DNA of 32,911 bases from Henriciella sp. (GTDB lineage: Bacteria; Pseudomonadota; Alphaproteobacteria; Caulobacterales; Hyphomonadaceae). Shown here one piece after another: positions 14,861-16,657 of the stretch. Position 1 is the first letter of the stretch, and every line of letters starts with the position of its first letter. The DNA is taken from positions 1 through 32,911 of the forward strand of contig DUBH01000007.1 in the NCBI GenBank assembly GCA_012960415.1, given 5' to 3'. The translations under genes were made by a program, and so were the position numbers. The notes beneath the pieces were generated by a model. The model was not told the DNA's origin, did not search any database, and saw nothing but the letters and a program-made list of their open reading frames with translations.

Positions 14861-16657
14861 ATGAATTTCTGGGTCTACGAACACTTTTCGAACAAGCGCG
14901 CCCGGGTGCACGCGGCCGATTGCCGGTACTGCAATCACGGCCAGGGTGTCGGCGGCGACCAGACCAATGACGATGACAAGTGGCATGGGCCGTTCAAGAC
15001 CTATGCCGAGGCAGAGACGACCGCACAGTCGCTCGGCCAGAAAGACACCCGCGACTGCGGCGTCTGCAAGCCTGCACAGGCGAGCGAGCGCCGCGGCATC
15101 AAGGTGTCTGACGTTGCCCCGGCCATCGCTGCGGCAGCCATAAAGGATACTGCCCCTAAGCCGGCGGCAACCAAAAAGCCAGCTTCCACAAAGACCAAAA
15201 CGACATCCGCTCCCAAGGAGACGCCTTCCATGAGCAGCTCTGCATCCGCCGCAACAGGCAAGATTTCACAGGTTATCGGCGCTGTCGTCGACGTTGAGTT
15301 CGATGGCCAGCTTCCAGACATCCTCAACGCGCTGGAAACCGACAATAATGGCAACCGCCTGGTTCTCGAGGTTGCCCAGCACCTCGGCGAGAATACGGTC
15401 CGCACCATCGCCATGGACTCCACCGAAGGCCTCGTTCGCGGTCACCCGGTGACAGACCTTGGTGAGCCGATCCGCGTGCCGGTTGGTCCTGAGACGCTTG
15501 GCCGTATCATGAACGTCATCGGTGAGCCGATTGACGAGCGCGGCCCGGTCAACACCAAGCAGCGCGCCCCGATCCACGCGCCAGCCCCTGAATTCGTCGA
15601 TCAGTCCACCGAAGCCGAGATCCTCGTCACCGGTATCAAGGTCATCGACCTTCTCTGCCCATACGCAAAAGGCGGCAAGATCGGCCTCTTCGGCGGTGCA
15701 GGCGTCGGCAAGACCGTTCTCATTCAGGAACTGATCAACAACATCGCGAAGCTGTTCGGCGGCTATTCGGTGTTCGCAGGTGTCGGCGAACGGACACGCG
15801 AAGGTAACGATCTCTATTACGAGATGATCGAATCCAACGTGATCAACCTCGAAGGCGACAGCCGCGTGACCCTGGTCTACGGCCAGATGAACGAGCCTCC
15901 GGGCGCCCGTGCCCGCGTCGCTCTGACCGGCCTCGCACAGGCAGAATACTTCCGCGACCAGGAAGGCAAGGACGTTCTGTTCTTCGTCGACAACATCTTC
16001 CGCTTCACGCAGGCAGGCTCCGAGGTGTCCGCACTTCTCGGCCGTATCCCGTCCGCTGTGGGCTACCAGCCAACGCTGGCAACCGACATGGGTGCCCTGC
16101 AAGAGCGTATTACCTCCACCAATAAGGGGTCGATCACCTCGGTCCAGGCCATCTACGTCCCGGCTGACGACCTTACCGACCCTGCACCAGCCACCTCGTT
16201 CGCCCACCTTGACGCGACCACGGTTCTTAACCGCGCGATCTCGGAAAAGGGTATCTATCCGGCTGTTGACCCGCTCGACTCCACCTCGCGTATCCTCGAC
16301 CCGATGGTCGTCGGCGAAGAGCACTACAATGTGGCCCGCGGCGTTCAGGAAATCCTGCAACGCTACAAGGAACTTCAGGACATCATCGCCATCCTCGGCA
16401 TGGACGAGCTGTCTGAAGAAGACAAACTCGTTGTGGCCCGCGCACGTAAGGTCGAGCGCTTCCTGTCGCAGCCATTCGACGTCGCTGAAGTCTTCACCGG
16501 CTCGCCAGGTGAGCAGGTCAAGCTCGAAGACACGATCAAGGGCTTCAAAGGCCTCATCGCTGGCGAATATGACCACCTGCCAGAGCAAGCCTTCTACATG
16601 GTCGGCGGCATGGACCAGGCCATGAAGAAAGCCGAAAAGATGATGGCAGACGCTTAA
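14861..16657 (+). CDS. atpD: ATP synthase F1 subunit beta with a fused N-terminal CxxC/CxxC domain
   Basis: One uninterrupted frame of 598 residues. Residues 1-71 are a small domain with two cysteine pairs (C21/C24 in DCRYCNHG, C66/C69 in DCGVCKP) and [15 protein letters not shown]. Residues 72-123 are a linker rich in Ala, Lys, Pro and Thr. From Met124 the protein is a normal 475-residue beta subunit: [18 protein letters not shown]-loop GGAGVGKT (278-285), [20 protein letters not shown] and DELSEED. Beta is the catalytic subunit of F1. The 14861 start has AGGGGA upstream; the internal ATG at 15230 has AAGGAG nine bases upstream. Both a fused and a normal beta may be made. The small domain resembles short stand-alone bacterial proteins I cannot name, possibly zinc-binding. 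Confidence 0.93.
15214..15232 (+). promoter_or_regulatory. Internal ribosome binding site and start codon for canonical-length AtpD
   Basis: AAGGAG (15215-15220) is followed nine bases later by ATG at 15230-15232, in frame with the longer reading frame. Initiation here yields [17 protein letters not shown] and a 475-residue beta subunit, the family's usual length. The same bases encode Lys-Glu of the linker in the fusion reading. Confidence 0.65.

Follow-up and report, generated by a model that had tools for sequence, protein, structure and literature searches.

Does the atpD gene of Henriciella sp. encode one F1 β subunit of the ATP synthase, or two? In the stretch of DNA analysed here (32,911 nucleotides of contig DUBH01000007.1, assembly GCA_012960415.1, referred to below as the window), the β subunit proper is preceded in the same frame by a 71-residue domain with two pairs of cysteines and by a basic tether, and a second ATG with its own ribosome-binding site stands where the ordinary subunit begins. 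An earlier reading of the letters alone, the original prediction, had proposed the in-frame fusion. Our overall reading, to which we give a probability of about 0.6, is that this is one atpD gene with two translation starts, which puts a docking arm on part of the F1 heads.

The fusion itself was examined in the window and in relatives. The nearest in-frame stop upstream of the long form's ATG was atpG's own TAA (14846-14848), meaning that the atpG-atpD gap holds no stop in the atpD frame, as the original prediction had read. The AtpD model TIGR01039 matched residues 132-594 of the long form (E 2.3e-253, 841 bits, for a cut-off of 462.85), and the translation contains the GGAGVGKT P-loop and the DELSEED loop, which are hallmark motifs of F1 β. 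Both motifs are also given in PMC11864180. For the comparison with relatives, the family set comprised 105 genomes, 7 of which gave no AtpD match. Junctions were read in 93 of the other 98, 39 with the domain and 54 without; the latter are 54 of 59 domain-less genomes, G490 (pattern not recognised), G600, G617, G618 and G621 being left out. At E <= 0.001, each of the 40 family carriers had a single match to the domain, fused in frame in 39 and lying at a contig end in the fortieth (G594). The AtpD frame was open across all 39 whole domain junctions, with an ATG-to-ATG distance of 303-438 nt that took 19 distinct values; the +1 frame contained stops in 35 of them and the +2 frame in all 39. A named contig matching that of G594 in length (L111, 10,106 bases) continued in frame past the internal Met and reached the AtpD core before ending. 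Since the frame is held in phase through many length changes, selection acts on the joined protein.

Rates of change pointed the same way. Among 24 genomes, the domain had a median pairwise ratio of non-synonymous to synonymous substitution (dN/dS) of 0.119, compared with 0.317 in the tether and 0.085 over the AtpD core's first ~150 codons; only pairs with a usable synonymous distance were counted (196 for the domain, 272 for the core). These genomes form set g1 (L001-L024), of which L015 belongs to another genus; L026 and L027, with the same genus code, are neither in it nor in the set of 23 Henriciella used below. Judging from these ratios, the domain is under purifying selection. The tether is highly variable in sequence, 30-75 residues long, and basic in 39 of 39 cases. 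A separate small gene that had lost its stop codon was also considered and was ruled out by the single match per carrier, fused in frame in 39 of 40. The comparison confirmed that the in-frame fusion is real and more than chance, and the interpretation first put forward is thus supported.

The internal start showed a conservation of its own. Upstream of the AtpD ATG, AAGGAG was found at 9 nt in 32 of the 39 domain junctions and AAGGGG at 6 nt in the seven others, which all belong to the Ponticaulis group (genus code g3). Among 23 Henriciella (L015 left out), synonymous variation over codons 119-125 was 0.000, the lowest of 280 seven-codon windows, for a median of 0.496. The residues encoded by the site varied by group (KETPS, KETPR, KETTR, KEIYK, KKGSS) and the binding site remained, so the residues are not the target of selection. 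An identical string of 28 bases, comprising site and start, was present in 3 domain-bearing junctions and in 20 of 35 domain-less g5 (Hyphomonas-group) junctions, where it forms the spacer after the atpG stop. Over the 54 domain-less junctions, AAGGAG was found in 25 and GAGGAG in 14; the last 15 (g4, g6, g7) had neither in the 25 bases searched. RNA folding at the two starts and at one domain-less start was unremarkable (z of 1.19, 0.32 and 0.05). The locus has what is looked for in a dual-start gene, an internal binding site and start conserved beyond the needs of the protein. We conclude that the ancestral atpD start survived the joining of the domain to the gene, and that ribosomes probably use both starts. 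The long form is almost certainly made, and it is likely that both forms are, at calculated masses of 64.5 and 51.2 kDa, close to the ~64 and ~51 kDa given in the original prediction. The latter had also allowed for up to three domains per F1 head. The conserved internal binding site had been overlooked, however, and because of it three is probably an upper limit, with long and short β mixed in the heads.

What the long form carries is a small domain. Seven positions (W4, H17, C21, C24, W41, C66 and C69) were invariant in 32 fused sequences, the cysteine pairs standing exactly where they had first been placed; at least four conserved Cys/His ligands, as expected of a zinc domain, are thus present in all 32 proteins, and from the cysteines the domain probably binds a metal, perhaps zinc. 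An AlphaFold2 model of residues 1-80 (predicted local distance difference test, pLDDT, 84.9; predicted template modelling score 0.75) gave strand-strand-long loop-strand-helix-strand. The domain proper is slightly acidic in the window copy (isoelectric point, pI, of 6.4). That no such domain was known on AtpD had been suggested tentatively, and the searches bore this out. Residues 1-71 found nothing above cut-off in Pfam, NCBIfam, PHROGs or PADLOC; the domain profile recovered from PDB sequences three collagen chains only, at E 0.096 or worse, which we took as chance; and Foldseek with the domain model returned nothing at E <= 0.001 from either the PDB or viral models, the weak viral matches, homing endonucleases among them, being left unused. 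The domain was confirmed in none of the viral contigs, for which the queries were A1, one stand-alone protein and the tail of a transposase, and in none of the phages searched. Plasmid matches came from Mesorhizobium and Bradyrhizobium records and one Sphingomonas transposase. On this evidence none of the libraries searched contains the domain family, which is undescribed. The N-terminal zinc domain of Ada (PF02805) was a structural lead that profile comparison did not support: hhalign with 17 Ada rows scored 18.9 over only 13 aligned columns, whereas the best of 60 column shuffles reached 19.4. PF02805 was not among the Pfam matches of the domain up to E 1, and no match to it at E 0.001 was found in the Henriciella genome itself, against 36 of 60 genomes of the order.

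Relatives of the domain occur on other proteins. Some are tails at the C-terminus of IS1-like transposases or of a GIY-YIG-like protein, others small stand-alone proteins; those outside the AtpD-arm profile matched it at E 1.3e-11 to 4.1e-24, while the G037 transposase (E 8.7e-27) is itself a row of the profile. A CxxC...W...A...CxxC pattern is common to most of these non-AtpD relatives. GIY-YIG-like proteins ending in the cysteine domain were read at L118 (5267-5965; weak PADLOC match, at E 0.0018, to a type II restriction enzyme) and at L122 (4816-5523). In the order, transposase-like proteins with the domain as tail were L119 (5883-7064), L120 (3280-4011), L121 (5316-6539; no Pfam match at E 0.1) and L123 (5976-7337). 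Ten open reading frames (ORFs) adjoining non-AtpD relatives had no common theme. These tails and stand-alone proteins share a profile with the AtpD arm but have other hosts, none tied to ATP synthase, and no described function was found for them.

How would such a gene work? Ribosomes starting at 14861 would make a long β, in which a small, probably metal-binding docking domain hangs on a flexible basic tether, and ribosomes starting at 15230, from the retained ancestral binding site, would make an ordinary β. Heads of the ATP synthase would then be mixtures of the two, with fewer than three arms per head on average. The N-terminus of β sits atop the F1 head in known structures, and because of this the arm is expected to reach from the head top into the cytoplasm and to be mobile, where it could hold a partner, protein or nucleic acid, near the enzyme and leave catalysis untouched. 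We somewhat favour a docking module over a catalytic inhibitor, given the transposase and GIY-YIG-like tails among the relatives of the domain and the analogy with Mycoplasma G1-β described below. That the partner would be a nucleic acid rather than a protein is a tentative suggestion. Equally tentative is the idea that heads are mixed on purpose, the two starts setting the fraction of β with a zinc arm in a tethering, possibly of nucleic acid, that is dosed by translation.

A docking arm dosed by two starts is proposed because of two parallels. The first is the G1-β of Mycoplasma, whose family we take to be NCBIfam NF045858. In Mycoplasma mobile, according to PMC11864180, the N-terminal domain and linker of G1-β lie outside the head, bind phosphoglycerate kinase and bridge two heads. 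The likeness is one of architecture only, in that the β crown domain is preceded by a linker and, before it, an N-terminal domain, and no homology is claimed. PMC11864180 describes an extension of 299 residues, ~100 of them ordered, and helical, in a gliding motor without a peripheral-stalk gene, whereas the Henriciella arm has 71 residues, a β-α model with CxxC pairs, an ordinary F1 operon and an internal start. The second parallel is ClpB/ClpBΔN, for which PMC6168691 describes one gene with a conserved in-frame internal start, a long form with an N-terminal domain and a short form without it. There both products were seen and the internal start is GTG; for atpD the products are inferred, and the internal ATG has its own AAGGAG. 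Ala/Lys/Pro-rich AtpD tails, which the original prediction had mentioned for some Caulobacterales, are indeed present in other families of the order (f2 and f4; L039, L040, L046, L047). They resemble the tether in their Lys/Ala/Pro-rich composition before the core but are short, lack the cysteine domain and have a start codon of their own. The tail of L039 is followed by a second Met ahead of the core. The probable zinc site of the Pseudomonas aeruginosa ATP synthase reported in PMC12796488 is in Fo subunit a and is unrelated to the atpD arm. Titles and abstracts contained no description of a β cysteine-domain fusion; most subscription journals lay outside this coverage, so its unpublished status is unproven.

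The domain is patchily distributed. A single-sequence search in 61 genomes (the window's own and 60 relatives) found it in 28, as 27 AtpD fusions and one transposase-like protein. A profile search of the order gave matches in 39 of 299 genomes, 28 of them in the family; four of the 39, with E > 1e-4, were left unread (G381, G456, G457, G550), matches G694, G139, G798, G057 and G793 also fall outside those read, and two weak, partial class-level matches (L054, L055) were excluded from the members. In the family, which is one of marine bacteria, the profile search found the domain in 40 of 105 genomes and 5 of 10 genera. The 32 named fused loci came from Henriciella (H. marina, algicola, barbarensis, aquimarina, mobilis, pelagia, and metagenome-assembled genomes), Ponticaulis, Hyphomonas johnsonii, Hyphomonas sp. 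BRH_c22, and Hyphomonadaceae or Alphaproteobacteria metagenome-assembled genomes. We take g1 to be Henriciella, g3 to contain Ponticaulis and g5 to contain Hyphomonas johnsonii. History was read from a tree built quickly from partial atpD and atpG sequences (93 rows, drawn with a midpoint root). In it, 11 rows of g4/g7, all without the domain, fell outside the rest as a group, and so did G626 on its long branch; the branch order near the base was weak. One gain followed by repeated losses is the simplest reading of it; alternatively, the junction may have been transferred between species. One genome, G008, lies in a domain-bearing clade of the window's genus. The domain has been lost from it, together with a single base just ahead of the ATG, but it retains the binding site and the full AtpD frame. 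It is apparently a natural strain with the short form only, its AtpD starting at the unchanged ATG. Long atpG-atpD gaps without the domain were seen in L029 (G007; 1032-1218, 183 nt) and L031 (G029; 1066-1188, 119 nt); these genera otherwise have the domain, and the gaps are possibly decayed remnants. In L037 (G030) AtpD is split by unknown residues, with VDNIFR repeated on both flanks; the assembly probably has a gap there, or the stretch was masked.

Several of our results weigh against the proposal of a docking arm on mixed heads. The domain is missing in 59 of the 98 family genomes with AtpD, and its presence and absence on the tree require at least 9 gain or loss changes, 7 of them forced by well-supported branches; for these two reasons the domain is, on the genomes compared, dispensable. 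Synonymous constraint at the internal site, clear among genomes of the one genus, relaxes when different genera are compared: over all 39 genomes the synonymous difference was 0.353 for codons 118-124, against 0.648 for the domain, 0.641 for the tether and 0.545 for the core. AAGGAG followed by ATG at 5-10 nt was observed 3 times in the window for 1.26 expected, and 12 of 100 shuffles reached 3. As this chance count is not rare, the motif alone proves little, and it is its conservation that serves as evidence. The case for two forms is built on the conservation of an RNA signal. The full-length AlphaFold2 model was uninformative (pLDDT 41.9), and the placement of the arm was taken from known F1 structures. 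Finally, two relatives of the domain outside the family, L116 and L120, deviate from the cysteine pattern.

Among other explanations, the one that fares best, though we consider it unlikely, is that the arm is a nucleic-acid tether or autoregulator, binding DNA or RNA, for instance the atp mRNA, as its relatives on IS1-like transposases and a GIY-YIG-like protein may do. The slight acidity of the domain does not favour it, the resemblance to Ada stayed within the column-shuffled controls, and being fused to a DNA-cutting enzyme is no proof of nucleic-acid binding. Somewhat less likely still is a regulatory arm acting on its own F1, either by braking ATP hydrolysis according to zinc or redox state or by making an extra contact with the peripheral stalk. 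Alphaproteobacterial F1 has another inhibitory add-on, the zeta subunit, which offers a precedent; the CxxC pairs could act as sensors of zinc or of the redox state, and a flexible N-terminal tether on β could reach the stalk. However, a tether varying from 30 to 75 residues is easier to reconcile with a loosely hung arm than with a contact at a fixed place, the relatives of the domain sit on unrelated enzymes, and the full-length model gives no usable contact surface.

A single 64 kDa fusion product, with AAGGAG a relic or a consequence of a conserved tether peptide, PKETP, would agree with the strict keeping of the fusion frame, with the frequency of PKETP in the set and with the partial constraint at the site between genera. 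We nevertheless regard it as improbable: synonymous variation at the site is zero in the 23 Henriciella, where the median window has ~0.5, the peptide becomes KETTR, KEIYK or KKGSS with the binding site retained, and the same bases are non-coding spacer in domain-less species, whose AtpD apparently starts at that ATG. The original prediction had already argued against a recent frameshift near the junction. An assembly, sequencing or frameshift artefact joining a separate small gene to atpD is excluded by the relatives, as all 39 junctions, from genomes of different species and at 19 lengths, are in frame without stop or frameshift, several cultured species are among the named fused loci, and the domain is under purifying selection.

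Coordinates are collected in Table 1. The gene order in the window is atpA-atpG-atpD-atpC; the names atpA, atpG and atpC are our presumptive assignments from familiar family features, with operon position as a further guide for atpA. In the atpD-atpC gap (16679-16754) lies an inverted pair of CCTTCGACAGGCTCAGG, with 2 exact matches against 0 in 100 shuffles, which looks like a palindromic repeat or terminator-like element.

Table 1. Features of the atp region, in window coordinates.
Feature	Coordinates	Strand	Basis or remark
atpA, F1 alpha subunit, 511 residues	12402..13937	+	ORF list
atpG, F1 gamma subunit, 294 residues	13964..14848	+	ORF list
Shine-Dalgarno-like AAGGGGA of the long form	14847..14853	+	sequence
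long atpD ORF, ATG start, 598 residues	14861..16657	+	ORF list, translation
71-residue domain with H17, C21xxC24 and C66xxC69	14861..15073	+	translation, alignments, AlphaFold2 model, dN/dS
basic Ala/Lys/Pro/Thr/Ser tether, 52 residues, pI 10.2	15074..15229	+	length and sequence variable in relatives
internal ribosome-binding site AAGGAG, 9 nt before the internal ATG	15215..15220	+	sequence, conservation, synonymous variation
internal start codon ATG, Met124; inferred AtpD start in domain-less relatives	15230..15232	+	
AtpD proper, 475 residues, 51.2 kDa	15230..16657	+	TIGR01039 match, calculated mass
atpC, F1 epsilon subunit	16788..17186	+	ORF list; longest listed start 16755

The β subunit is highly conserved and catalytic, and the usual assumption is that its gene yields a single protein. 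Here an extra domain under selection, present in 40 of 105 family genomes and apparently lost repeatedly, together with a conserved second start, makes heterogeneity of β directly testable. A tractable host complex is also gained for a domain family that is undescribed and that transposases and a nuclease-like protein share. For annotation the locus is a warning, as both starts of atpD may be right.
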